Positions 4,444 to 22,244 of a DNA stretch of 22,244 bases are shown one piece after another (the stretch's first letter is position 1; every line of letters begins with the position of its first letter). Source of the stretch: a virus. Below the pieces are notes generated by a model. The model saw nothing but the letters and a program-made list of their open reading frames with translations. It had not been told where the DNA came from and made no database searches. The translations under genes and the position numbers were made by a program. The stretch lies in IMG/VR virus record IMGVR_UViG_3300048102_000063, positions 1 through 22,244 of that record; one strand, written 5' to 3'.

Positions 4444-6300
4444 ATGCCGCTACAAAAGCTCCAGTTTCGTCCCGGGATTGTACGGGATACGACCGACTAC
4501 ACTAACGAAGGTGGGTGGAGAGACGGCGATAAAATACGTTTCCGTATGGGTTTCCCCGAAACTATAGGCGGCTGGACTAGGTTAACCTCTGAGGCGCTGG
4601 ACGGCGCTTGCCGATTCTTGCATAGTTGGACTTCCTTAGCTGGTACGACGTACATCGGCGCAGGTACAAATATGAAGCTGTACGTGGTAGAGGGTTCGGA
4701 GCCATCTGACATCACGCCGATTAGAGCGACCACTTCTGCGGGGGATGTAACCTTTGCAGCTACAAACGGCTCTACAACGATCACTGTTTCGGACACTTCT
4801 AACGGGGTAGTACTGAACGACTTCGTTACATTCTCAGGCGCAGTAGGTTTGGGCGGAAACATCACCGCAGCGGTACTCAACCAAGAGTATCAAGTTACTT
4901 CTGTTGTGGACGCCAACTCTTACACGATTGAATCTGCGGTGGCCGCAAACGCTTCGGACACTGGTAATGGCGGTGCAGCGGTTGTAGGTGCGTATCAGAT
5001 TAACGTAGGTCTGGACTCATCCGCTGCTGGTAGTGGTTGGAGTGCTGGCTCTTGGAGCCGGGGTACTTGGGGTTCAGCGGCTGACGTTTCTGTTCCTAGT
5101 ACGAGTTTACGTCTGTGGTCCATGGACAATTTCGGGGAAGACTTACTGGCCAACGTACGTGGTGGCGGTATATATTATTGGGACTCTTCTTCAGGTACGG
5201 GTACACGCGCCGTAGATATAACTACTCTAAGTGGAAACAACCAACCTCAAGTTGCTAATATTGTTCTTGTCTCTGAACGCGATCGACACGTTATTGCATT
5301 TGGCTGCGACCCAGAGGCCGATCCCGGCGTCTTAGACCCACTAACGATCCGCTTTTCTAGCCAAGAGAGCTTTACAGATTGGGCCGCTACAGACGTTAAC
5401 ACCGCTGGTGAGTTGCGAGTCGGTACAGGTTCTGAGATAATCGCTGCAGTACAAACTAAACAACAAGTGATAGTGTTTACAGACCGATCCGTATCTTCAA
5501 TGCAGTTTATTGGTGCGCCGTTTACCTTCGGCCTATCTGAAGTCTCTACAAACACTTCGATCGTGGGACAGAACGCCGCCGTTGCTTTTGGTGATGCCGT
5601 GTACTGGATGGGCGACGACGTATTCTACAAATACGATGGTAACGTGCAGCTTATCCCCTGTCCTGTAGAAGAGTACATATTTGCGGATATGAACATCGCG
5701 CAGAGGGCTAAAGTTACCGCGGCGAGTAACAGCAAGTTTAACGAGATTTGGTGGTTTTACCCTTCCGCTGATAGCACCACTAACGACAGCTACGTCGTGT
5801 TCAACTACGCCGAAAACGTATGGTATTATGGCACTATGGCGCGCACTGCTTGGGACGAAGGCGGCGTGTCAGGGTATTCGATCGCTGCGTCTACTGATGG
5901 ATATGTCTATTTCCACGAGAACGGCGTATCTGACGGCAGCACAAATCCACCGAGCGCTATAAGCAGCTACATAGAGTCCAGCGCCATCGACATCGGGGAC
6001 GGCGATCAGTTTATGTTCGTAAGCCGTATTTTGCCTGATCTGACGTTCCGCAACTCTCCGGGCAACCCAGTGGCTACCTTTTCGGTAAGCGCGCGTAACT
6101 TCCCCGGTGCCAACTTTGACCAGACTAATTCTGGTACTGCGGTCCGCACGGCTACCGCACCTGTGGAGCAGTTTACAGATCAGTTGTTCTTCCGACTGCG
6201 AGGGCGCTCTATGTCGTTAAAAGTTGAGTCGAACGACGTCAATACCGAGTGGCGGCTAGGCACACCGCGCGCAGATATGCGTACGGATGGGAGGCGTTAA
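4444..6300 (+). CDS. packaged DNA stabilisation / tail hub protein (P22 gp10-like)
   Basis: The 618-residue protein has a GGAGGT ribosome site at 4433-4438. Its start (LQFRPGIVRDTTDYTNEGGW, then DGDKIRFRMGFPETIGGW) is the signature of podovirus stabilisation proteins related to P22 gp10, which plug the portal after packaging and form part of the tail hub. The rest is beta-rich with repeated Trp/Tyr motifs, consistent with a propeller-like fold (for example SLRLWSMDNFGEDLL, IYYWDSSSG, VIVFTDRSVSSMQFIG, IWWFYPSA, VWYYGTMARTAW). Length is somewhat above P22 gp10. It overlaps the next start in a TAATG. It would act in the virion at the head-tail junction. The homology is recognised from motifs, so a general tail-tube or hub label is the fallback. 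Confidence 0.72.
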   Translation: MPLQKLQFRPGIVRDTTDYTNEGGWRDGDKIRFRMGFPETIGGWTRLTSEALDGACRFLHSWTSLAGTTYIGAGTNMKLYVVEGSEPSDITPIRATTSAGDVTFAATNGSTTITVSDTSNGVVLNDFVTFSGAVGLGGNITAAVLNQEYQVTSVVDANSYTIESAVAANASDTGNGGAAVVGAYQINVGLDSSAAGSGWSAGSWSRGTWGSAADVSVPSTSLRLWSMDNFGEDLLANVRGGGIYYWDSSSGTGTRAVDITTLSGNNQPQVANIVLVSERDRHVIAFGCDPEADPGVLDPLTIRFSSQESFTDWAATDVNTAGELRVGTGSEIIAAVQTKQQVIVFTDRSVSSMQFIGAPFTFGLSEVSTNTSIVGQNAAVAFGDAVYWMGDDVFYKYDGNVQLIPCPVEEYIFADMNIAQRAKVTAASNSKFNEIWWFYPSADSTTNDSYVVFNYAENVWYYGTMARTAWDEGGVSGYSIAASTDGYVYFHENGVSDGSTNPPSAISSYIESSAIDIGDGDQFMFVSRILPDLTFRNSPGNPVATFSVSARNFPGANFDQTNSGTAVRTATAPVEQFTDQLFFRLRGRSMSLKVESNDVNTEWRLGTPRADMRTDGRR

Positions 6301-6551: not shown

Positions 6552-6631
6552 CTGATAAGGCAACGCCTGAACGCAAAGATGTATCGGTGCCGATCACAGC
6601 GCCAAAACCTGCTGGCGGCGGCGTATTCTAA
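6548..6631 (+). CDS. 27-residue micro-protein, translationally coupled on both sides
   Basis: The ATG at 6548 overlaps the upstream stop (ATGA), and its own stop TAA shares a base with the next start (TAATG at 6629-6633). The peptide begins MTDKATPERKDVSVPI and ends PAGGGVF. It is charged at the start, proline/glycine-rich at the end, and has no hydrophobic segment. Without it there would be an 80-base gap in a region with no other gaps, which supports it being a real gene. It could also serve mainly to carry ribosomes to the next cistron. Function unknown. Confidence 0.6.
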   Translation: MTDKATPERKDVSVPITAPKPAGGGVF

Positions 6632-6864
6632 TGGAGATGGCCGCTCTTTGGAATGTTGGACTTACCGCTGGAGTAGGGTTTATTGCTTGGTGGGCTAAGT
6701 CCCAACACGACGAGCTGCGCCGTGTGCAGATACTACTTAACCGAACTCGTGAAGAGATGGCTAAAGAGTATGTTACTAAAGCCGATAGTTCAGCGGTAAT
6801 GAGTCAGATCGTAGCGCGTTTCGACCGACTCGAAGAAAAGATAGATAGATTGATGGAAAAATGA
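6631..6864 (+). CDS. small single-pass membrane protein with coiled coil
   Basis: The 77-residue protein has an N-terminal membrane segment (residues of about 4-21, AALWNVGLTAGVGFIAWW). A charged helix follows (QHDELRRVQILLNRTREEM), then a short heptad-like C-terminus (ARFDRLEEKIDRLMEK). This layout is common for small phage inner-membrane proteins near lysis genes, such as spanin-like or holin-associated proteins. No family signature was recognised. It starts in a TAATG overlap and its stop overlaps the next start (ATGA), so all products in this stretch are probably made from one message. It may be an accessory lysis or envelope protein. That is inference. Confidence 0.65.
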   Translation: MEMAALWNVGLTAGVGFIAWWAKSQHDELRRVQILLNRTREEMAKEYVTKADSSAVMSQIVARFDRLEEKIDRLMEK

Positions 6865-7409
6865 AACGTCTCGTACTTACACTTCTACTGATCGGAAGCG
6901 CAGCCGCAGCGCAAGACAGTGATGTCGTAAAAAGCGAAAGCACGGTCACAAGTAGCGGAACAATGGACACAACGGTCAACTCTCCGCCGCCCTCTGCTAT
7001 CTCTCCGCAAATATCTGCAAGCAATAGCGATCTTTGCACGGTTGGCGTAGCTGGGGCTGTACAGACGCAGATACTTGGTATTTCCGCTGGCCGCACTGTG
7101 CGCGATATGAACTGCGAGAAGCTAAAGAACGCAAAGACCATGTATGATATGGGCATGAAAGTGGCGGCGGTGTCTGTGATGTGCCAAGATGAGCGCGTAT
7201 TCGATGCAATGATGAACGCTGGAACCCCGTGCCCCAAGGATGGATTGATTGGCGATGCGGCGAAAACCGCTTGGGAGATGGAAGCCAACAAAGACCCTGC
7301 GCCAGAAATGCAGCGTGGGGCTATAGAAGGGTTGATTGATGCACAAGACTCCAAAACTATTGGGATCGGCGCTGTGTTGGGCGCTCTGGGCCTCCTCCTG
7401 CTACTCTGA
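6861..7409 (+). CDS. secreted four-cysteine protein of marine phages
   Basis: The 182-residue product begins with a Sec signal peptide (MKRLVLTLLLIGSAAAA, cleavage probably before Gln18). A Ser/Thr/Pro linker leads to a conserved-looking domain: SDLCTVGVAGAVQTQILGIS, DMNCEKLKNAKTMYDMG, VMCQDERVFDAMMNAGTPCP. Cys59, Cys85, Cys108 and Cys124 could form two disulfides in the periplasm. The C-terminus (IGIGAVLGALGLLLLL) is a hydrophobic tail that could anchor the protein in a membrane. I recognise the domain as recurrent in marine and other phages but know no function for it. Its last 71 bases also encode the signal peptide of the next gene in another frame. Confidence 0.75.
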   Translation: MKRLVLTLLLIGSAAAAQDSDVVKSESTVTSSGTMDTTVNSPPPSAISPQISASNSDLCTVGVAGAVQTQILGISAGRTVRDMNCEKLKNAKTMYDMGMKVAAVSVMCQDERVFDAMMNAGTPCPKDGLIGDAAKTAWEMEANKDPAPEMQRGAIEGLIDAQDSKTIGIGAVLGALGLLLLL

Positions 7410-8211
7410 TCCCTATGTGTTTGGGGTCACAGGCAATGCCGCAGCAAACGGTCTGTCTTGGTCGATGGGATCGGTGCTTCCTTCACAAGATGGCCTAGAC
7501 GTAAACGGCCTGATTTACAGATACAGCACGGTTAAAAACGCCGACGATGCAATGAAGGTGCATATCCGCAACGGCAATGCCGATGGCACGGGTTACACGT
7601 TTAGCGAGACTGATGATTGGTCAGGTGTCCCCGGCAACACAATCACCAAACAGTTTTCGTTGCCTTACGTCCCGGCGGCTCTCTGGGGCGATGGCTCAAT
7701 TGATGTCGAAGGTACAGGCGAAGTGATCGACCCTGTTGTGATTTACAGTTACCGCTTCGATCCGTGCTACGATCCTCAGATCGACCCAAACTGTCCGGGC
7801 TACGTCAAACCTGCGCCGCCTGTCATTGAAGTTGAGGTATATGATGCGCTGGAAGATGAAGCGGTAGCTGAGATTTTAGAAGACGAAACCGAATTTAAAT
7901 ATGATGCGGATGGTAATCTGATTATCGAAGAAGCTGAGGAAGAAGAGGAGACGCGCTTGGAGATGGGCCTCATGGCCTCGGCCAATGCACTGACTCTTAC
8001 TCAAGCCCAAGGTCAATCTGCTCTGATTAACCAGATCAATTTGCAAACCAACCTTGCTATGTATTACAATGCAAATATCTCAGGGGGAGCTTACGGAGAT
8101 GTCAATATTTTGACGGACGTTGACCTCCCTGATAATAAGAAGGCACTGAGGAACAACTTGGCACAACAATTGCTACACGAGCAAATGGTCCAAAGCCAAT
8201 ATGGAGATTGA
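7339..8211 (+). CDS. secreted protein with acidic central segment, function unknown
   Basis: The ATG at 7339 follows a GAAGGG at 7326-7331; a TTG one codon earlier is possible. The 290-residue product has a signal peptide (HKTPKLLGSALCWALWASSC); Cys near its end could also be a weak lipobox, but the -3 residue is Ala. Next comes a domain with DPYVFGVTGNA, WSMGSVLPSQDGLDVNGLIY, YTFSETDDWSGVPGNT, LWGDGSIDVEGTGEV and CYDPQIDPNCPGY. A very acidic segment (EILEDETEF to EEAEEEEE) separates it from an Ala/Gln/Asn-rich helical tail. The N-terminal domain resembles proteins seen in marine T4-like and other oceanic phages, with no known role. It overlaps the previous gene by 71 bases. It is probably exported together with its neighbours. 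Confidence 0.7.
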   Translation: MHKTPKLLGSALCWALWASSCYSDPYVFGVTGNAAANGLSWSMGSVLPSQDGLDVNGLIYRYSTVKNADDAMKVHIRNGNADGTGYTFSETDDWSGVPGNTITKQFSLPYVPAALWGDGSIDVEGTGEVIDPVVIYSYRFDPCYDPQIDPNCPGYVKPAPPVIEVEVYDALEDEAVAEILEDETEFKYDADGNLIIEEAEEEEETRLEMGLMASANALTLTQAQGQSALINQINLQTNLAMYYNANISGGAYGDVNILTDVDLPDNKKALRNNLAQQLLHEQMVQSQYGD

Positions 8212-8212
8212 C

Positions 8213-8704
8213 ATGAAATATCTAGCCCTTGTCATGTGTTGTACAGCCGTGCCTGCACTTGCAAACAACGTGAATATCAACGGCACGGTTGAGGCTCGCT
8301 GCGTTATCACAACGGATACTGTCGGCGTCTACGGCAACCCCACGGCGGACAAGCTGACCACAGCCTCTGCCAGTGCAGGCGTTGTGCCTGTTGTTCGATA
8401 TGATGTGGCGTTGGCCAACTACTACACCGCAAAGATTACGCACCCTACCTCGTTTAGCTCATCGCCCTCACTAAACGACACGGTGACTTGGACCGGGTCA
8501 ACATCCGTACACAATACAAGCGATGCTGGCATGTCTGGTTACGATGCAGCGAAGGTGACTTACGGATCAACCACAGAGTTTGCACTAACCGTTGCGGGAT
8601 CAACGTGGTTCAAGACAGAAAGCGAAGCGGTGTATGGCGTCAGCAAACCATTCCCCGGCGGGACGTATACCGCCCTTGTTGTGGCAGAGTGCATTGCTAA
8701 TTAG
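8213..8704 (+). CDS. secreted beta-sandwich protein, fimbrial/SCPU-like
   Basis: The ATG at 8213 was chosen over that at 8201 because it directly begins a clean signal peptide (MKYLALVMCCTAVPALA, cut before Asn-Asn) and has GGAG at 8203-8206. The mature part opens VNINGTVEARC and closes GGTYTALVVAEC, so two cysteines at opposite ends could bond. It is beta-rich with Thr, Ser and Val between them. A Cys soon after the N-terminus plus a G-x-Y-T-x-x-V end is the layout of spore-coat-U or type 1 fimbrial subunits. The next gene looks like a pilus-chaperone Ig domain, which supports this reading. Homology is not certain; an unrelated secreted beta protein is the alternative. Confidence 0.6.
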   Translation: MKYLALVMCCTAVPALANNVNINGTVEARCVITTDTVGVYGNPTADKLTTASASAGVVPVVRYDVALANYYTAKITHPTSFSSSPSLNDTVTWTGSTSVHNTSDAGMSGYDAAKVTYGSTTEFALTVAGSTWFKTESEAVYGVSKPFPGGTYTALVVAECIAN

Positions 8705-9077
8705 AGCCTGCATATTCTCCTGCCTTGCTGCGCCAGTGGCAGCGCATGACATGACCCCTGCCTATCCAGAGGTGCGACCGTCACATGTTGCTGGCGTGGT
8801 TCGCGCCGATATGTCTTTGTTTAACGCTCGTAGTGATGTGAAGTATTATCAGGTCGAGGTGTTTGACGAGGCTTGGGGAAACATAAAATTCTCGTCACCA
8901 AACCGCATAATGAAGGTAGATCACGAAGAACGTAAAGACTTTGCAGTTTACATTCGCAAGGCTGATTTGGATCGGGCGGTTTACCTTTGTACTACGTCAA
9001 AGATCGTAAAAGATCGTGGTGACAAGCCAATGGTCGCAAGCAAGATATGTTCGAGGCTTGACGGTGGCAGACCATGA
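8694..9077 (+). CDS. secreted single Ig-like domain protein, pilus-chaperone-like
   Basis: The frame is open far upstream, but a signal peptide (LIRACIFSCLAAPVAA, cut before His-Asp) begins only at the TTG at 8694. TTG codons at 8676 and 8679 are alternatives, and no ATG is placed well. From 8694 the protein has 127 residues and overlaps the previous gene by 11 bases. The mature part reads VAGVVRADMSLFNARSD, YYQVEVFDEAWG, SSPNRIMKV, ERKDFAVYIRKADL. This resembles the first domain of PapD-type chaperones, which holds pilus subunits. The second chaperone domain is missing. Gene order after a fimbrial-like protein supports the reading. Confidence in the chaperone role is modest. Confidence 0.55.
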   Translation: MLIRACIFSCLAAPVAAHDMTPAYPEVRPSHVAGVVRADMSLFNARSDVKYYQVEVFDEAWGNIKFSSPNRIMKVDHEERKDFAVYIRKADLDRAVYLCTTSKIVKDRGDKPMVASKICSRLDGGRP

Positions 9078-9517
9078 GGCTGCTTTGGGCTGCATACGGT
9101 GTCTTCTGCATTGCGGTTTCAATTTGGTTTATTTCCGCGATCCAAGCTAGATCGGATAGTAGCTCCCTCGCTGTGCAGCTTCCAAGTCCACCCATGAACT
9201 ATCAGTCAGATAGGTTCCGTGCAGGCAACTTAGATTGCAGCAACGCCATTGGCGGCGGCACGACCTTAGAGTGGGGCGTTACAGGTGTGGTCAATAACGA
9301 TGGCAATGTCGGACAGGGCAAGGACATCGGGCTTTATGCTCGTATTGTTATCCCGCTGGACAAGCCGCGCAGTCGTATAAACTGCGATGATCTATATCAG
9401 CTTGAGTTGACGCAGCGCAGGCTTGAGGTGCAGATGCTTCGCGCTGAATTGCAGGCACTGCAAGACTTGCAAAACAGCCAGACCAACTCCGATGGCGATA
9501 TGGAGTTTGAGAATTGA
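9074..9517 (+). CDS. exported protein with two cysteines and C-terminal coiled coil
   Basis: The 147-residue product starts in an ATGA overlap and carries an N-terminal hydrophobic segment (LLWAAYGVFCIAVSIWFISA) that is either a signal peptide or an anchor. A Pro-rich stretch (LPSPPMN) precedes a beta-rich core with LDCSNAIGGGTTLEWGVTG, IGLYARIVIPLDKP and RINCDDLYQLEL, where Cys55 and Cys104 may pair. The end (RRLEVQMLRAELQALQDL) is a coiled coil. The pattern of Pro linker, D/L-C, then N-C-[ED]-x-L followed by a helix is similar to the four-cysteine protein at 6861-7409. Function unknown; the context puts it in the exported cassette. Confidence 0.7.
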   Translation: MRLLWAAYGVFCIAVSIWFISAIQARSDSSSLAVQLPSPPMNYQSDRFRAGNLDCSNAIGGGTTLEWGVTGVVNNDGNVGQGKDIGLYARIVIPLDKPRSRINCDDLYQLELTQRRLEVQMLRAELQALQDLQNSQTNSDGDMEFEN

Positions 9518-10092
9518 CTGACCTAACAAAAGTGGCCGATGACATAGATGGCCTCGCTGACCGCGAGATCAAGGCTGGCGGCTTTAAGTTTACCTTTGCC
9601 TCCGTGGCTGCAATTTTTGCATTTATATCCACCGTTGTCGGCGGCTTGTATGGTGGCTTTGTTCTCTATCAAAAGATCGAAGAGGTCGCTGGCCTAGACC
9701 TTGGCGCATATCAGCAACAGATGGAGGTGATGGATGCAAAGGTTTCCGGGATGGCTGAGAAAGTCGAAGAGGCTGTCGAATATTCCCGCGACATCAAGAA
9801 CGGTCTTAAAGATGACATACTGCGAATTGAGCAACAAAGCGACCGCGTTGAAGACACGGTTAGGGCTATTGAAGACCGGGTTGACGGTTCGATCCGATCA
9901 AACGAAGCAGAGGTCCGGCGGCTCATAGATGAAGCTATAGCCGACATTCGCGCTATGATAGACGCCGCTGACGTTAGGTTTGAAAATCAGCGAGAACGTG
10001 TTAGAAGTAGCCAAGACGCGGACATGAAAGAACTTGAAGAGCGCTTGACAAATAAGTTGCAACGGGCGCTCGACAACCCTTTAGCCGACTAG
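9514..10092 (+). CDS. membrane protein with long coiled coil
   Basis: The start is TTG within a TTGA overlap with the upstream stop, with GGAG at 9502-9505; no in-frame ATG comes before the membrane segment. The 192-residue product has a short N-terminal region, one membrane segment (residues of about 27-50: FTFASVAAIFAFISTVVGG), then a highly charged helix running almost to the end (IEQQSDRVEDTVRAIEDRVD, EVRRLIDEAIADIRAMI). Such anchor-plus-coiled-coil proteins are frequent just upstream of holins in marine phages. No enzymatic motif. It may organise the membrane before lysis or be an envelope factor. Function unknown. Confidence 0.65.
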   Translation: MTDLTKVADDIDGLADREIKAGGFKFTFASVAAIFAFISTVVGGLYGGFVLYQKIEEVAGLDLGAYQQQMEVMDAKVSGMAEKVEEAVEYSRDIKNGLKDDILRIEQQSDRVEDTVRAIEDRVDGSIRSNEAEVRRLIDEAIADIRAMIDAADVRFENQRERVRSSQDADMKELEERLTNKLQRALDNPLAD

Positions 10093-10101
10093 GAGGCACT
10101 C

Positions 10102-10401
10102 ATGGAAGAATATGATCTTAATGGGAATGGTAAGCTAGACCCGGAAGAAAAGGCAATCATGCTTGAAGACCGCCGCCGCAAGATGGAAGATGCAGACGCC
10201 AAGCGCGATGCACAACGCAAGATGGCGTGGTTCTCTTTGACGGGTATGTTGGTCTTCCCGTTTGGCGTGGTGCTGACAGAATACATGGAGCTTCCACAGG
10301 CTAGTGAGATGTTGGCAAGCATGAGCAACATTTACTATGTGTCTATTGCCGCAATCGTGGCGGCGTACTACGGCTTTACAAATATGGGCAAAGGCGGATG
10401 A
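10102..10401 (+). CDS. small membrane protein with N-terminal EF-hand loop
   Basis: The 99-residue protein has a strong AGGAGG at 10091-10096. Residues 5-16 (DLNGNGKLDPEE) form a canonical 12-position EF-hand loop: Asp1, Asn3, Asn5, Gly6, hydrophobic 8, Asp9, Glu12. A charged helix (KAIMLEDRRRKMEDADAKRD) follows, then two membrane segments (residues of about 43-60, WFSLTGMLVFPFGVVLTEY, and about 77-92, YYVSIAAIVAAYYGF). The entering helix of the EF-hand is essentially absent because the loop begins at residue 5. It lies two genes ahead of the holin, so a calcium-sensitive lysis or holin-partner role is a reasonable guess, not established. Confidence 0.72.
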   Translation: MEEYDLNGNGKLDPEEKAIMLEDRRRKMEDADAKRDAQRKMAWFSLTGMLVFPFGVVLTEYMELPQASEMLASMSNIYYVSIAAIVAAYYGFTNMGKGG

Positions 10402-10402
10402 G

Positions 10403-10510
10403 ATGCGAGCTGCAATTGAGGCCACGGTTATGGCTCTAATTTTGGCGGCGTTTCTATATGGGTTTTTACACAGCGATGGTGTTTTTACTATGCTAGGGAA
10501 TTTAAAATGA
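10403..10510 (+). CDS. 35-residue single-pass membrane peptide
   Basis: The ATG at 10403 lies just past the upstream stop, with AGGCGG at 10392-10397 as ribosome site. The peptide (MRAAIEATVMALILAAFLYG, then FLHSDGVFTMLGNLK) is one hydrophobic helix with a short tail. Its stop overlaps the holin start as ATGA at 10507-10510. Another ATG at 10398 reads only 13 codons. The tight coupling and membrane character support a real gene, perhaps an antiholin or holin partner. Function is inferred from position only. Confidence 0.6.
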   Translation: MRAAIEATVMALILAAFLYGFLHSDGVFTMLGNLK

Positions 10511-10893
10511 TCGGTCAACTTTTAGGTCCAGTAACCAGCATTGTCGGTGGCATTGTCCAAGGCAAGATGGAACAGAAGGCCGCTGAAACAAAAGCCAAGG
10601 TCGCCAAGGCGGAAGCCCAAGCGCAGATAATGCTGTCACAGGCTACGTCAGAGGCCGACTGGGAAAAGGTCATGGCCGAAGGTTCGCGCGATAGCTGGAA
10701 AGATGAATGGCTTACGATCCTGTTCTCGGTGCCGCTGGTGCTTGCCTTTTGCGGTGAGTGGGGTCGTGATATAGTCGCCGATGGTTTCACTGCACTCAAT
10801 GCCATGCCCGATTACTATCGCTACACCTTGGGAGCCATCGTCAGCGCCAGCTTCGGTATCCGGGGTGCAACTAAATTCTTTGGGAAGAAGTGA
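10507..10893 (+). CDS. holin, GTA-type 3TM family
   Basis: The 128-residue protein begins with a short hydrophobic segment (IGQLLGPVTSIVGGIV), continues with an Ala/Lys/Glu helix (KAAETKAKVAKAEAQAQIM), and then has a conserved-looking block SRDSWKDEWLTILFSVPLVL. A last membrane segment (YRYTLGAIVSASFGIRGA) ends in a basic tail (TKFFGKK). The S-x-K-D-E-x-x-T before a membrane helix and the Y-x-Y-x-L-G-x-I-V-x-x-x-F-G-x-R end are typical of the holins associated with gene-transfer-agent release and marine phages. It would make inner-membrane holes that let the endolysin out. It stands one gene ahead of the endolysin, as usual. Confidence 0.75.
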   Translation: MIGQLLGPVTSIVGGIVQGKMEQKAAETKAKVAKAEAQAQIMLSQATSEADWEKVMAEGSRDSWKDEWLTILFSVPLVLAFCGEWGRDIVADGFTALNAMPDYYRYTLGAIVSASFGIRGATKFFGKK

Positions 10894-10894
10894 T

Positions 10895-11734
10895 ATGACA
10901 ATTACACCTGATGAACTACGGGCAATGATCCCGACAAATGACGAAGTAGATACTTGGTGCGAGGAACTGAACAAGGCACTGCCTAAGTACGGCATCAACA
11001 CGCCTCAGCGCATTGCAAGTTTTATCTCGCAGTGTGCGCACGAGAGCCGGGACTTTACCGCGCTTGAAGAGAACCTCAACTACTCTGAGGGTGCGCTGAA
11101 CCGCGTGTTTGGGCGTTATTTTGGTGAAGGTAAGCGCAACGCTGCCGAATATGCCCGCAACCCAGAGAAGATCGCCAACTATGTATACATGGACGAGTAC
11201 CGTTCCAAGCGCGGTGCATTAGGGAATACGCAGCCGGGTGATGGTTGGCGCTTCCGGGGCAAAGGGCTCAAGCAACTTACTGGGCGTAACAACGTCACGG
11301 GTTTTGCCAACGATTACGACATGACACCAGAAGAAGCATCTGAGTGGTTGGAGACAAAAGAAGGTGCATTGGCATCGGCTTTGTGGTTCTGGGATACAAA
11401 CAACCTAAATGCTATTGCTGATACCGGTGACGTAAAGGCTACAACCAAGCGAATTAACGGCGGTGATATCGGTCTGGCAGATCGACAATCACGATACAAC
11501 GTGGCAATGCAGGCTCTTACTGGCGATATACCACCCCGTGCCGCCGTATCCAAAACCCTGCGTGTTGGCAGCAAGGGAAGCGACGTTAAACAGATGCAGG
11601 CTAAACTTGGCATTGTCGCTGACGGTGTATTCGGTCCGGGTACAGCCAAGGCGGTTAAAGCGTGGCAGGGAGCAAATGGCCTGACCCCTGACGGAGTTAT
11701 TGGCCCTAAGAGCCTAGCGATTATGTTTGCCTGA
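10895..11734 (+). CDS. endolysin: glycoside hydrolase family 19 with C-terminal peptidoglycan-binding domain
   Basis: The ATG at 10895 was chosen because it starts a normal GH19 N-terminus; an in-frame start at 10781 would run through the holin gene. The 279-residue enzyme cuts the peptidoglycan sugar chain. The GH19 part (about 1-205) shows FISQCAHESRDF with Glu50 and EENLNYS with Glu59, the usual pair of catalytic acids in phage GH19 lysins. It also shows FRGKGLKQLTGRNN and ALWFWDTNNLN. The C-terminus (LRVGSKGSDVKQMQAKLG, DGVFGPGTAKAVKAWQ, DGVIGPKSL) is a PG_binding_1 domain. No signal peptide is seen, so release would depend on the holin. Its stop overlaps the next start as TGATG. Confidence 0.93.
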   Translation: MTITPDELRAMIPTNDEVDTWCEELNKALPKYGINTPQRIASFISQCAHESRDFTALEENLNYSEGALNRVFGRYFGEGKRNAAEYARNPEKIANYVYMDEYRSKRGALGNTQPGDGWRFRGKGLKQLTGRNNVTGFANDYDMTPEEASEWLETKEGALASALWFWDTNNLNAIADTGDVKATTKRINGGDIGLADRQSRYNVAMQALTGDIPPRAAVSKTLRVGSKGSDVKQMQAKLGIVADGVFGPGTAKAVKAWQGANGLTPDGVIGPKSLAIMFA

Positions 11735-16791: not shown

Positions 16792-19700
16792 ATGGGCGTT
16801 TATCAATACGACGATCCTAAAACCGGGCAAGGATATGACCTGCGTATTGTTGGAGACGTTCCAACAGAGGAAGAGTTTGCTAGACTAGAGGGCCAAATCC
16901 GGCAGGATAGAACCGCGTTTCTTGAAGACTACGAGAAACGGTTCGGTACCGAGATAGAGTTTGACGATGGCACTGCTCTTGGTCGTGGTTTTGGTCGTGG
17001 TACGCAGCAAATCAAGCAAGCTGTCGGTGAAACAGTCGGCACTATTGGGGAGCAGACTGGTCTTGGGTTCCTTGCGAATTATGGTCAAGGTGTAGAAGAA
17101 CGCGCCGGGCAAGAGCTAGGGCGCTTATCTTTAACCCAACCTGAACGCATGCAGTCTACTGATGTCGATAGTATTGGCTCGGCGTTGACTTACGCGGGTG
17201 AACTTGTTGGTGAGCAAATACCACAACTCGGTCTGGGTCTCGGCGCTGCTGTCACTGCTCCTGTTCTAGCCGGTGCTACAGGTGTAGCTGCTCCGTTCCT
17301 TATTGGTGCTGGCGCTGCCGGTGTCGTAACTGCGCCGATCCTGTTTGGTAACAACATCCAACGGCAGGAAGACGAAGTCGCAGCGGGCAAAAAAGATCGA
17401 GTTGATGTGAGCGATGCGCTCGTCGCTACTTTCGGCCAAGCGACACTCGAAGGTGTAGCTGACAAGTTGTTGCTAGGTGGTGTTCTTAAACCCATCGGCA
17501 AGTCCATATTTACCCGCACAATATCCCGTGCCGGTGGCGGTGCTACTTCTGAAGGACTAACTGAAGTCGGTCAGCAAATGCTGGAGCGGTCACAAGCTGG
17601 CCTGCCTATCGACAGCGAAGACGCTATTGCGGAATATCGTGAAGCTGCCATTGCAGGTGGTCTGATCGGTGGTGGTACACGCTCTACTATTGGCGCATTT
17701 GGCGACAGCCCTGCGGATGTTACGCCCACTACCACGAAAGCGAAAGAAGAAGCTACTGTTGAACCTACCACGAAAGCGAAAGAAGAAACTACGGTTGAAC
17801 CTACTCCGGTGGCAGATGAAACTACGGTTGAACCTACTCCGGTGGCAGATGAAACTACTGTTGAACCTACTCCGGTGGCGGAAGAAGCTGCTGCACCTGC
17901 CCAGACGGCAGAAGAGATTGCTGTCGAGGCCGAAACCGCTGCAGAGCCCGAGGTTGAAGCTGCAAAGCCCACCACCGGGCAGGGCACCCAACAAAAGTTC
18001 GATCAGGCTGCAGCCGAGTTCCGTGCAAAACGAACAGTCACTAAAGAGATGCTCGACGAGATCGGCGTTTCTAGGACAGCGGCGTTACGTAAACGGATCA
18101 CTGGGTTAGACGTTACTGATGATGCGGTGAAAACCGATCTTCTCAAATATGCAGATAACCCGAACCCGAAAGTGAAGGCAAAAGCGGACAAGATAAAAGC
18201 GGGTATCTCGGCGTTGCTAGGAGACACTGATGCTACAGGATTGGGAACAGGAACTGAAACTGAACTTACCGCAGTTGGAACAGGCGCTGAAGGTAGTGGA
18301 CTTAGCGTGGAGCAGCTCGAACGAGTTAGAAGTGCAGCTAGAGATACCCGAGAGCCTGCAACACCTGACGAGGTTCCAGTGGGAGGAAGTGTGCCACCTG
18401 TTGTCGTACCTGCAGTATCAGCAGGAGCGGAGCCCGATACACTAGAAGATGTATCCCCGGAAGCAGTTGCAGATCTCACGCAAGAAGTCGATGCAATCGT
18501 CGCCGAGCCGGTCACACCAGTACAAGTCCCTGCTATGGAGCAAAACGCGATACCCGGCCAAGTCACAGGTGTAGCGCAACAAGTTATTCCTGCACCCGTA
18601 GCCCCTGCACCGCGCGCTGCACCATTAATCGGCGCGTCTCTACCACAAGCCGATTTGCAAGCTGTCGAGGCTCAACGAGACGCCGCTGCACAAGCACAAA
18701 TCGAGCGTACGTTTGAGAGCAATCGAGGTAAACAGCCTGAAGTACGTGAGTATCACGACACGCAGTTGGACCCGCGGTCTGCTCCTGAAGTAACCACTGC
18801 AGTGGACAAGGAAGGCGTTGTCGAGCTACTCAACACAAAAGACGCTGACCTCGACGATACTGGAAAAGCTGCCAAGCTGTACTTCAAACGCTTCCGTCGC
18901 CCTGTAGATGCCCTCGCCGAAATCGGCATGATTGCGGTTAACGGCCCTACGCAAAGCGTCAAGAAAAACTACACACCCAAAGAGTTCGCTTTCTACAAGG
19001 GCATGACACAGCCTTCGGCGATGAACGCACGTCGTTGGGTACACGCCAACATGTCTGACAGCGCCATCCAAGAGATGATCCGTGCGCGCCGTGTAGCTAA
19101 CCGCGACACTAGCAAGTTTAACCCGTCCGATGCCTACATTGGTGTGGTTAAGGCCGCTAAGTCCATTCAGCAAAAAGAGGATAACGCCCTCAAGAACCAG
19201 CTGAACCGCTTCCTTGCGTCTCCAGAAGTAAACTATCAAGCCCCTGCGGAGCCGGATCAATCTTTACGCGCTGAAGCTACAGGACAACTTGTTGGCGAGC
19301 GCATCACTGGGCCTGTGACTAAGTCGTTTAAGCCGATAAAGGGTCAGACTGCGCTCGAGTCTTTTTTAGCGGGAATAGATTTTAAACGGCGTAAAGTCCG
19401 CAGTAACGAAACGGTTGCGGACGACACATATACCTATACTGACAAAGAAGGTAACGTGTATGCCTACGAGGATACGCGAGCCGAGGGGAAACTACTTACA
19501 AAAGTAGACGCACAAGAGTTCTACGACGACCTATTGTACAGCCAGAATGAGCTAGGCTTCTTGCTCATCGACCCCGTGCATGGTCTGGACATGGCTATAC
19601 TGCCTAGTATCCGCAACGCTCTACAACGTGGCGACTTGCAGTTTGCTCTCAACGCTATTGCGGCCACAAGCCAAGTAGACCGTATCCGAGAGATTGCTGC

Positions 19701-22244
19701 CAAGCTGGCCAGAGTTGTCGGCACTACTAAAGTGCAGGTGATGGACGATATCTCCCCCGTAGCAGGGCGCACTGCTGCTGGCTTATTCGAGCCCGATACA
19801 AATACGATTTACCTTGACGCTAACAACGGCATGAACGTGCATACTGTTTTGCACGAGATGGCCCACGCAGCTACCTCGGCGTCTTTGGCAAACCCAGCCT
19901 CACCGCAAACCAAACAGTTACAAGGCTTGTTGAACGCAGTGCGCGCTCAATTCGGCGAAGTATACGGCACTCGCAATCTCGACGAGTTTGTTGCCGAAGC
20001 CTTTAGTAATCCGCAGTTCCAGAGTGCGTTAGCGTTCCTCAAGACTGATGGTGGTAGGGTATCTGGCTGGGACAAATTTACTACGGCGGTGCGCAACATT
20101 GTGCGCAAGATTATGGGTATGCAGCCGAAAAAGCTAAACAGCGCGCTTGACGAGGTAGACCGTATTGTCAACGGCATGCTAACGCCGTCCCCCGCTACAC
20201 GAGCAGCACCTTCGATGATGCTACTGTCTGCCACTAAAGCCGGAGCAAACAAACTAGCCCAGAGCGCCGCTAATCTTGCTCCAGAGACCTCGGCTAAAGT
20301 CGCGGACCTAGCGGATGTTGTTTACAATGAAGGCGTATCGCCGAAAGCTAGAAGTTTTGCGCTGGACACGCTGCCTGTAAACATCTTGACTGATATGGCC
20401 AAAAGCAAAATCCCGTTTGCGGAAGAGCTTAACCTACTTATCAAACAGCAGAGCGGTGCGCTTCGTAAAAAGTCTGACGTGCTCGACTCCATCTTGCGGA
20501 ACTTCCATAAGTGGCAACGCAAGAACCCTGAGATGACTGCTATCCTCAACAACATAATCCCGCAAAGTACCTACCTGAAGGTTGACCCGTCGAGAACGGA
20601 TGCTGCGTACCTGAAAACTATTCGGGACGATGCAGAACGCTCCCCGGAGTATGATAAGTTGCGGGCGGAATTCCTAAAACTGGATGAGAAGGGACAAGAC
20701 TTCTACAAGCAGATGCGGAACTACTTTCAAGATACGTATGACGATATCATCGCTGCGTTAGAGGCCCGTTTGGAAGCCACGATTTCAGACCCAGCACTGC
20801 GGCAGAACGCTTTTGAATCGCTCAGAAAGATTTTGCAGAAGGATTCTGGGGTTATCCGTCCGTACTTCCCACTTATGCGTAAGGGTAAATATCGACTGGC
20901 GTACAACTTTATCGACGAAGACGGGCGTTCTGAGCGGGCTGTAGAGTATTTCCCTACATTGCGTAAGGCAGAGCAGGCCAGCGAGATGGTGCTTGAGTAC
21001 AACAAACCTCAAGGCGATACGTTTGACTCTGGCATAGAGCTTACAACATCTTCGCAAACTATGAGCTTCGATAAAGTGCCTAGCAGTGGGTTCATCCGTG
21101 ATATTCTGAAGTCGGTCGAGTTTAACGAACAGGAGTTCAAGACTAACGAGGGCTACAAGAAGGTAATGCAAGACCTTGTTGACTTGTCATTAGACGCAAT
21201 GCCCGAGCGTTCGTTCCTGCAGAACCTACGCCGTCGTAAGGGTGTTCGAGGGTTTATTGGGGATGTAACGCCAACAGGCATGGGGGGCATGGAATTCGAT
21301 GCCTACACTATGATGAAAGAAAAGGGGCGTGATCTTAACAGGCAGCTGGTGCAAATGAAGTCTGCAGCGGAGATCGAGAAGTTCCGAGCAAAGCTGAAAC
21401 CGTACAAAGAGAACCCAAGCACCGCTATGATGGCCAACAAGCTGGATAAAATTTCTGGCTTTGCCTCTAGCCCTAATGTGCCGCAATACTCGCAAGTCGT
21501 GAACAGCTTGGGTTTCGGGTTTACAATGGGTCTAAACTTCTCGTCCGCAGCGATCACCTTTTTCGACGTTGCCATGAGTGCCATGCCCGTACTCGCGGGT
21601 TCACACGGTATTCGTAATACTGGCAAAGCATTTGGGTCCGCTACTAAATTGTTTGCGGGAGCGCCTAGCAAACGCACGGTTATGGTCACAGGCCCAGAAG
21701 GTCAGCCGGTAGAGCAAGAAATAGACATGGGTGTAGCTGGAAAATCTATCTCCAATTACGACCTAAACAACTTGCCAGAGATGTTGCGCAATGTCCGTGC
21801 AGATATACTTATCTCTATGGGTATCGACCAAGGACAGTTCAATCAGTCCATGGTGCAGGAAGACTTAGAAGTTGGGCGTAGCGCCCCCATGGAGACGGTA
21901 AACAAGTACTCCAGCTTCATGTTCCACCACTCGGAACGGTTCAACCGTGAGACAACGCTCACAGCTGCCTACATGCTAGAGGTTCAAAATCTGCAGCGTA
22001 AGAAAGGTCAGCTATCCGAGCAGGATTATCGCGCAGCGGCGCAGAAAGCGATTGACAGCACGGAGTTTACTCTAGGCTCTACCGCAGCGGCGGGGCGTCC
22101 GATTGTAGCTCAAAGTGGTATTGGTAACATCCTGTTCCTCTTCAAACGCTTCGCGGTCAGTAAATACTACATGATGGCCAAGCTGGCGAAAGAGGCGGCT
22201 AACGACCCAGACCCAGAAGTAAGGAAAGCAGCTCGTAAGGGCGG
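16792..22244 (+). CDS. giant virion protein with zinc metallopeptidase motif (3' partial)
   Basis: The ATG at 16792 follows AAGGTG at 16782-16787. The frame stays open for 1,817 codons to the window edge, so the C-terminus is missing. The N-terminal part includes a Gly/Ala-rich hydrophobic stretch (about 144-185) that could insert in a membrane. A repetitive Thr/Glu/Pro linker lies near 314-365. Residues 1021-1025 (HEMAH in TVLHEMAHAAT) are a zinc-protease site, with the likely third ligand in DEFVAEAFSNPQF (1064 onward; Glu1069). Then come a charged helical region, RPYFPLMRKGKYRLAY, and hydrophobic helices (GFGFTMGLNFSSAAITFFD). This layout fits phage polyvalent/ejection megaproteins. It occupies the position of T7 gp16, whose enzyme is a transglycosylase. 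The peptidase target is unknown. Confidence 0.85.
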   Translation, partial: MGVYQYDDPKTGQGYDLRIVGDVPTEEEFARLEGQIRQDRTAFLEDYEKRFGTEIEFDDGTALGRGFGRGTQQIKQAVGETVGTIGEQTGLGFLANYGQGVEERAGQELGRLSLTQPERMQSTDVDSIGSALTYAGELVGEQIPQLGLGLGAAVTAPVLAGATGVAAPFLIGAGAAGVVTAPILFGNNIQRQEDEVAAGKKDRVDVSDALVATFGQATLEGVADKLLLGGVLKPIGKSIFTRTISRAGGGATSEGLTEVGQQMLERSQAGLPIDSEDAIAEYREAAIAGGLIGGGTRSTIGAFGDSPADVTPTTTKAKEEATVEPTTKAKEETTVEPTPVADETTVEPTPVADETTVEPTPVAEEAAAPAQTAEEIAVEAETAAEPEVEAAKPTTGQGTQQKFDQAAAEFRAKRTVTKEMLDEIGVSRTAALRKRITGLDVTDDAVKTDLLKYADNPNPKVKAKADKIKAGISALLGDTDATGLGTGTETELTAVGTGAEGSGLSVEQLERVRSAARDTREPATPDEVPVGGSVPPVVVPAVSAGAEPDTLEDVSPEAVADLTQEVDAIVAEPVTPVQVPAMEQNAIPGQVTGVAQQVIPAPVAPAPRAAPLIGASLPQADLQAVEAQRDAAAQAQIERTFESNRGKQPEVREYHDTQLDPRSAPEVTTAVDKEGVVELLNTKDADLDDTGKAAKLYFKRFRRPVDALAEIGMIAVNGPTQSVKKNYTPKEFAFYKGMTQPSAMNARRWVHANMSDSAIQEMIRARRVANRDTSKFNPSDAYIGVVKAAKSIQQKEDNALKNQLNRFLASPEVNYQAPAEPDQSLRAEATGQLVGERITGPVTKSFKPIKGQTALESFLAGIDFKRRKVRSNETVADDTYTYTDKEGNVYAYEDTRAEGKLLTKVDAQEFYDDLLYSQNELGFLLIDPVHGLDMAILPSIRNALQRGDLQFALNAIAATSQVDRIREIAAKLARVVGTTKVQVMDDISPVAGRTAAGLFEPDTNTIYLDANNGMNVHTVLHEMAHAATSASLANPASPQTKQLQGLLNAVRAQFGEVYGTRNLDEFVAEAFSNPQFQSALAFLKTDGGRVSGWDKFTTAVRNIVRKIMGMQPKKLNSALDEVDRIVNGMLTPSPATRAAPSMMLLSATKAGANKLAQSAANLAPETSAKVADLADVVYNEGVSPKARSFALDTLPVNILTDMAKSKIPFAEELNLLIKQQSGALRKKSDVLDSILRNFHKWQRKNPEMTAILNNIIPQSTYLKVDPSRTDAAYLKTIRDDAERSPEYDKLRAEFLKLDEKGQDFYKQMRNYFQDTYDDIIAALEARLEATISDPALRQNAFESLRKILQKDSGVIRPYFPLMRKGKYRLAYNFIDEDGRSERAVEYFPTLRKAEQASEMVLEYNKPQGDTFDSGIELTTSSQTMSFDKVPSSGFIRDILKSVEFNEQEFKTNEGYKKVMQDLVDLSLDAMPERSFLQNLRRRKGVRGFIGDVTPTGMGGMEFDAYTMMKEKGRDLNRQLVQMKSAAEIEKFRAKLKPYKENPSTAMMANKLDKISGFASSPNVPQYSQVVNSLGFGFTMGLNFSSAAITFFDVAMSAMPVLAGSHGIRNTGKAFGSATKLFAGAPSKRTVMVTGPEGQPVEQEIDMGVAGKSISNYDLNNLPEMLRNVRADILISMGIDQGQFNQSMVQEDLEVGRSAPMETVNKYSSFMFHHSERFNRETTLTAAYMLEVQNLQRKKGQLSEQDYRAAAQKAIDSTEFTLGSTAAAGRPIVAQSGIGNILFLFKRFAVSKYYMMAKLAKEAANDPDPEVRKAARKG
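17731..17886 (+). repeat. tandem repeats in the linker of the giant protein (36-bp then 33-bp period)
   Basis: A 21-base block encoding TTKAKEE occurs at 17731-17751 and 17767-17787, a 36-base period. Then a 33-base unit encoding TTVEPTPVADE occurs at 17788-17820 and 17821-17853 with identical bases, and a third at 17854-17886 that differs slightly. The unit encodes an acidic, proline-containing hinge. Perfect identity of two units suggests recent slippage duplication, so copy number may vary between relatives. Confidence 0.9.

Follow-up and report, generated by a model that had tools for sequence, protein, structure and literature searches.

Phages are known to send exclusion proteins encoded by a single gene to the host envelope; Llp of phage T5, for instance, is a single small lipoprotein. 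Two-component spanins (Rz/Rz1) include an i-spanin that combines an N-terminal membrane helix with a periplasmic coiled coil and is encoded near the holin and endolysin. In bacterial chaperone-usher pili (FimC/FimA, Caf1M/Caf1, CsuC/CsuAB), the subunit gene precedes the gene of a two-domain periplasmic chaperone. Larger exported modules also have a precedent among marine phages: pelagiphages of the HTVC008M-like and HTVC023P types carry curli or type VIII secretion genes (CsgG, CsgF, CsgA/B) that have moved between phage families, are absent from the usual host and have no known role (PMC7029224, PMC9599517, PMC9004378). This report focuses on a cassette of six genes, g1 to g6, found in a 22,244-nucleotide stretch of DNA from a marine phage (IMG/VR record IMGVR_UViG_3300048102_000063, positions 1 to 22,244), hereafter the window. 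The cassette looks like a real, uncharacterised module acting on the envelope; an initial annotation knew of no described function for its first five genes, and a literature search of incomplete coverage likewise found no description.

The initial annotation, made from the letters of the sequence, had singled out five consecutive, overlapping or nearly abutting genes for exported proteins, situated between virion and lysis genes. This arrangement was confirmed: g1 to g5 follow one another on the + strand at 6861-9517, flanked by a virion gene at 4444-6300 (phrog_3287) and an endolysin gene at 10781-11734 (phrog_181). The five genes are real, but the unit goes on with g6 (9514-10092, + strand), which is its sixth member. 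Gene limits of g1 to g6 were set by comparison with relatives. g1 (6861-7409) encodes 182 amino acids comprising a signal peptide, a four-cysteine domain and a hydrophobic C-terminus, read as a membrane anchor. g2, which starts at the ATG at 7339 and extends to 8211, overlaps g1 by 71 nucleotides and codes for a signal peptide, an N-terminal domain with a cysteine pair, an acidic spacer and a conserved C-terminal segment. The product of g3 (8213-8704) has a signal peptide and is a predicted immunoglobulin (Ig)-like beta-sandwich subunit, possibly pilin-like, in which a cysteine pair joins the first and last strands. g4 (8694-9077) overlaps g3 by 11 nucleotides, begins with a TTG at 8694 that is kept across relatives, and encodes a signal peptide followed by a single predicted PapD/MSP-type, chaperone-like Ig domain. 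g5 (9074-9517), overlapping g4 by 4 nucleotides, specifies a signal peptide or anchor, a small two-cysteine domain and a C-terminal coiled coil, while g6, which overlaps g5, specifies an N-terminal transmembrane helix and a long coiled coil with an NPLAD end. The products of g1, g3, g4 (weakly, E 0.03) and g5 match PHROG families 20531, 25895, 25455 and 37374, all of unknown function, and no convincing PHROG match was obtained for g2 and g6. Sequence searches of Pfam and PDB returned chance-level matches only, whether the queries were individual proteins or profiles built for g2, g3 and g4.

Each of the five proteins had been credited with a signal peptide or N-terminal anchor, and most with paired cysteines suited to the periplasm; both attributions are borne out. 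Signal peptides were assessed with a home-made score for which 559 unrelated open reading frames (ORFs) provided the background (median 1.29, 95th percentile 3.39). The scores of g1 to g5 in the window (5.96, 3.71, 4.61, 4.14 and 4.83, respectively) all exceed that 95th percentile, the least clear case being g2 (3.71 vs. 3.39), and the medians of their relatives (4.3-5.5) agree with them. The N-terminal hydrophobic stretch of g5 is longer in the window than in relatives, whose signal peptides are of the ordinary cleavable kind. In their mature parts, the g1 to g5 proteins of 115 distinct full cassettes have cysteines that are invariant (at least 98%) and even in number (4, 2, 2, 2 and 2), at positions 59/85/108/124 of g1, 144/153 of g2, 34/164 of g3, 133/153 of g4 and 55/104 of g5 (ORF numbering). 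The remaining recurrent cysteines of the cassette proteins sit in signal peptides, and g6 has none. The possibility that g2 is a lipoprotein was rejected, as the cysteine near the end of its signal peptide varies among relatives.

Every related viral locus that spans the cassette has all six genes in one and the same order, and independent scattering was not seen. This holds for four sets of loci, drawn with g5 (50/50), g4 (40/40), g2 (45/45) and the g1 of a relative (38/38), whose contigs overlap between sets. Pairwise protein distances within g1 to g5 correlate with one another (r 0.69-0.87), and their correlation with the holin-side neighbours g7 and g8 is lower (0.23-0.41). This pattern of signal peptides, invariant cysteines, shared gene order and distance correlation supports g1 to g6 as one functional unit. 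The cassette has also moved between unlike phages. Its flanks vary between the phrog_3287 virion protein found in the window, a phrog_1216 portal protein and giant tail-fibre genes, and certain pairs of loci have no flanking ORF in common although their cassettes are 75-78% identical. Cultured phages searched with g2, g3, g4 and g6 of the window yielded no match, and only g1 and g5 provided a bridge to them. Two phage contigs from a metagenome bin, L445 (71 kb) and L446 (45 kb), carry a complete, divergent cassette with a gene for a class-3 lipase after it (PF01764, 3.5e-23 in L445); this enzyme could likewise act on the envelope.

The set proposed in the initial annotation stands as a co-inherited cassette, but it is divisible. 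Indeed, it is a composite of a frame (g1, g2 and g6) and a triad (g3, g4 and g5), each of which is found elsewhere without the other. In pelagiphage-type loci, g1 and g6 are present without g2 to g5 in 52 of 52 cases, and the place between them is occupied by an exported protein of roughly 430-610 amino acids (X) that, like g2, commonly overlaps g1 by about 70 nucleotides. The C-terminal segments of X and g2 are alike (hhalign 87.7%, E 3.4e-6; control pairs at most 3%), whereas homology between their N-terminal parts is undetectable by hhalign. This frame also occurs in the Roseobacter phages CRP-207 and CRP-810, where the middle protein is of a third type. Genes of these two phages labelled as lysozyme (L433 3292-3873 and L434 6162-6584) match the g6 family by their membrane helix, coiled coil and NPL ending, and the labels are probably misannotations; the label “OmpA family protein” of CRP-810 gp53 received no backing from Pfam. 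The likeness of g6 to coiled-coil proteins of Mosig, HTVC202P, Baldr and HTVC023P is limited to layout and the NPL ending, and the homology of g6 among distant phages depends in part on coiled-coil sequence and on this common ending.

The triad, on the other hand, is found without the frame in Vibrio phages, with the order g3-g4-g5 retained, and relatives of g3 were found in 179 Vibrio phage records. In the T5-like phages pVp-1 and Ceto, it adjoins genes for a holin and an M15 peptidase. A large protein encoded next to the Vibrio triad was considered as a potential usher and rejected: it is fibre-like, belongs to phrog_10818, and has neither a signal peptide nor the usher domain PF00577. Vibrio phages also carry a gene for a small protein after g5 (L084 6287-6445, L153 6287-6430, L437 5870-6271), and the D93 version has a lipobox-like signal, LVSSC-TINLQIDTDYAAQ, making it a candidate outer-membrane lipoprotein. 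Beyond phages, an alphaproteobacterial contig (G239) bears g3, g4 and g5, their order unchanged, in the vicinity of genes for a sensor kinase and a sigma-54 regulator, and a Mesorhizobium plasmid bears them and an additional g3-like gene close to an EAL gene. Profile comparisons between bacterial and phage proteins matched over nearly the full length for g4 (93.2%) and g3 (97.5%), and g5 matches directly. On bacterial contigs and plasmids, g5 and its neighbours lie next to genes for EAL-domain proteins or two-component regulation (L444 7074-8622, minus strand; L435 4026-5853; L436 3309-6048), and no usher was seen adjacent in these three loci. On a V. nigripulchritudo plasmid, a 262-amino-acid protein encoded beside g5 matches nothing in Pfam.

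Structure prediction covered g4 and g3. The AlphaFold2 model of g4 (mean predicted local distance difference test [pLDDT] score 84.6, core above 90) shows a PapD/MSP-type fold, chaperone activity being another matter. Its VIA neighbours include Caf1M (Z 10.5, root-mean-square deviation [rmsd] 3.7 over 107 residues), FimC (Z 10.4, rmsd 3.8 over 102 residues), SafB, DraB, SfaE, PapD (Z 9.7) and CsuC (Z 9.3), and the alignments cover chiefly the N-terminal domain of these chaperones (102-107 residues and rmsd 3.4-3.8 for Caf1M, FimC and PapD). A viral structure library contained no informative neighbour of g4. The g3 model (pLDDT 74) is Ig-like, and a pilin-like Ig fold is a tentative assignment. 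FimG, the pilin domain of PapG, CsuE, CfaB and Caf1 are among its best Foldseek matches, which are weak (E 4e-3 to 0.1), and its N-terminus displays a V-x-I/F-x-G-x-V...C pattern that resembles, by eye, strand A of pilins. As in chaperone-usher pili, the gene of the putative subunit (g3) precedes that of the putative chaperone (g4), and the pair may work like a subunit and its chaperone. The differences are that g4 has one domain only, with a mature part of about 110 amino acids aligning to FimC 1-116, and no sequence match links the cassette to the PapD_N, SCPU or Fimbrial families.

These folds bear on the suggestion of the initial annotation that the genes could build an exported fibre-like structure. 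In its explicit form, pilin-like g3 would be polymerised with the help of g4 and would exit by way of an usher of the host or some other pore, so that infected cells would bear adhesive fibres. Besides the predicted g4 fold, the g3 Foldseek matches and the strand A-like pattern, it draws on the proximity of bacterial relatives to EAL-domain genes on two plasmids and on the precedent of phage curli, for which a role in “sibling capture” was proposed (PMC7029224, PMC9599517). Against it, neither usher (PF00577) nor CsgG (PF03783) was detected in any of 18 records, which for the usher were whole records including complete cultured phages, although the controls were positive (E. coli for the usher); an usher supplied by the host would be compatible with this result. 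The second chaperone domain is lacking as well, and g3 has VIA Z scores below 8 with non-pilins (integrin and Sdr domains) in the top places and a null profile comparison with SCPU pilins. An exported fibre seems unlikely to us. Since usher and CsgG are missing from the 18 records, the cassette is neither a chaperone-usher pilus nor the pelagiphage curli operon, and there is no support for equating it with a pilus or curli system already known. The resemblance to the curli module lies in its being a multi-gene exported module of marine phages that moves between phage families and is missing from the usual host; its parts are unrelated in sequence to those of the cassette, which would pair a subunit with a PapD-type chaperone rather than forming an amyloid pore.

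Sec signal peptides, cysteine pairs, co-inheritance of six genes, transfer between phages and the fold of g4, all seen in the sequences or predicted from them, are the basis on which we favour, at a little under even confidence, the explanation that the six genes specify a single exported multi-protein complex, made late in infection in the host envelope, that remodels the envelope at the lysis stage and/or masks the surface. Timing and interactions are derived here from operon layout and neighbours. Late in infection, the cassette proteins would leave the cytoplasm through Sec, be oxidised in the periplasm and then assemble. g4 would act as a one-domain periplasmic chaperone escorting the adjacent Ig-like subunit g3, with g5 as partner or anchor of the two. 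The triad could be mounted on a membrane frame made of g6 (inner membrane, with a periplasmic coiled coil), the membrane-tethered g1, and g2, an exported stalk whose conserved C-terminus would dock and whose N-terminal domain would be replaceable. As the least certain steps, the complex might remodel the envelope at the end of infection, aiding the holin and endolysin in releasing progeny from marine Gram-negative hosts, and/or might mask the surface against further adsorption. The biological role, whether lysis, exclusion or a fibre, is the weakest step of the proposal.

A lysis-stage role is favoured because the cassette recurrently adjoins lysis genes. Within 4 kb, probes that miss some endolysins picked one up in 23 of 42 loci (PHROGs brought out more, as in L031), and lysis genes (M15 peptidase or holin) are also next door in HTVC023P, pVp-1 and Ceto. 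Several observations nevertheless weigh against the explanation that we favour. The other 19 of the 42 loci yielded no recognised lysis gene within 4 kb, and in bacteria the triad is maintained in the absence of lysis genes, which means that lysis is not necessarily its core function. In the Vibrio phage K251 g3, the triad is placed between head and connector genes. The distances of g6 correlate with those of g1 to g5 at just 0.41-0.56, and those of the g9 endolysin likewise correlate with the cassette, at about 0.6. Finally, g4 matches a domain of the unrelated hydrolase CsxA (Z 10.6) and eukaryotic MSP domains (MOSPD2, Z 9.9) equally well, has no Pfam match to PapD_N (PF00345), and reaches 9.9% probability in hhalign with 15 PapD_N sequences (controls 0.1%).

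The position in K251 g3, together with the large fibre-like proteins that adjoin triads in Vibrio phages, would suit a decoration of the virion assembled in the periplasm, in which exported proteins bind virions at lysis as, for example, head or tail fibres. We regard this as very improbable, given that tailed phages assemble in the cytoplasm, that signal peptides and cysteine pairs indicate the envelope, and that the triad exists in bacteria outside recognisable phages. Superinfection exclusion or receptor masking is a stronger contender, although still rather doubtful. An exported complex would coat or block receptors against sibling or rival phages; g3 and the exchangeable N-terminal domain of g2/X would be its effectors. 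Every product is indeed exported, as in the Llp type of exclusion; the exported domain of g2/X varies by phage group while its C-terminus stays constant; and the cassette adjoins tail-fibre genes in several backgrounds. Known exclusion proteins, however, are usually the product of one small gene, as is Llp, and the cassette genes are located among late genes. No likeness to Llp was noticed, no search aimed at it having been made. A lysis-stage envelope role is ranked somewhat ahead of pure superinfection exclusion.

Directly upstream of g1, g0b (6631-6864, + strand; phrog_462, 1.9e-9) encodes a small inner-membrane protein with a coiled coil; homologues are present in the Roseobacter phages CRP-901 and CRP-810, and its likeness to i-spanin or lipoprotein families is weak (phrog_214, Rz-like spanin, E 0.02). 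By sequence, both g0b and g6 have the i-spanin layout, and g6, close to holin and endolysin like Rz, has no family-level match. The cassette comprises far more genes than Rz/Rz1, and a crude rule found no lipobox ORF that could be an o-spanin in the window, which is a fragment. Downstream, g7 (10102-10401, + strand), a frequent and variable neighbour, has two hydrophobic stretches and an EF-hand-like motif (DxNGNG); it also directly follows g6 in CRP-207 and may be a membrane protein of the lysis region with a link to calcium. g8 (10507-10893, + strand) is holin-like (phrog_2524, 1.6e-28; weak GTA_holin_3TM match, PF11351, E 0.25) and, as with the endolysin gene g9 (+ strand; 9e-68), lies outside the unit. 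A holin-like gene nearby would fit a control of lysis by antiholin-like sensing, whereby periplasmic disulfide-bonded proteins set the timing of the holin as does T4 RI, which is reported to be periplasmic with a cleavable signal peptide (PMC8385771). Six genes including an Ig subunit and a chaperone far exceed the needs of a sensor, however, and no similarity to RI was found, which makes this alternative improbable.

The window itself is a piece of a virus record with a GC content of 52% and P22-like virion genes. The nearest relatives of the 4444-6300 protein are proteins of DSL-LC04, HTVC027P and the Roseobacter phage CRP-901 (35-41% identity), and the sole cellular match is a phage-like contig within a Rhodobacteraceae bin. 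Within the tail-fibre region, a gene for a flavin-dependent tryptophan halogenase (1687-2910; phrog_2928, 9e-70) is an auxiliary metabolic gene that the window shares with only two related loci, at 84% identity. At the other end, 16792-22242 encodes a very large protein (more than 1817 amino acids, open at the window end), which from its position alone is probably an internal virion or ejection protein.

Taken more broadly, the cassette may represent a previously undescribed, usher-less assembly system of the surface or periplasm, consisting of the Ig subunit g3, the one-domain PapD-type chaperone g4 and their partner g5, which would be common to a few bacteria and to unrelated phages, and which marine phages would have set on a second, phage-specific membrane frame (g1, g2/X and g6), with the host envelope as its target at the end of infection; we put this forward as a tentative idea, held with more reserve than confidence. 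The bacterial triad points to a small chaperone-subunit system, apparently without an usher. Because cultured Vibrio phages have the triad, and cultured pelagiphages and roseophages the frame, the function of the module is testable in isolates, beyond metagenomes. The retention of six envelope genes by several marine phage backgrounds implies that these phages gain enough from some step at the host envelope to devote about 3 kb to it.

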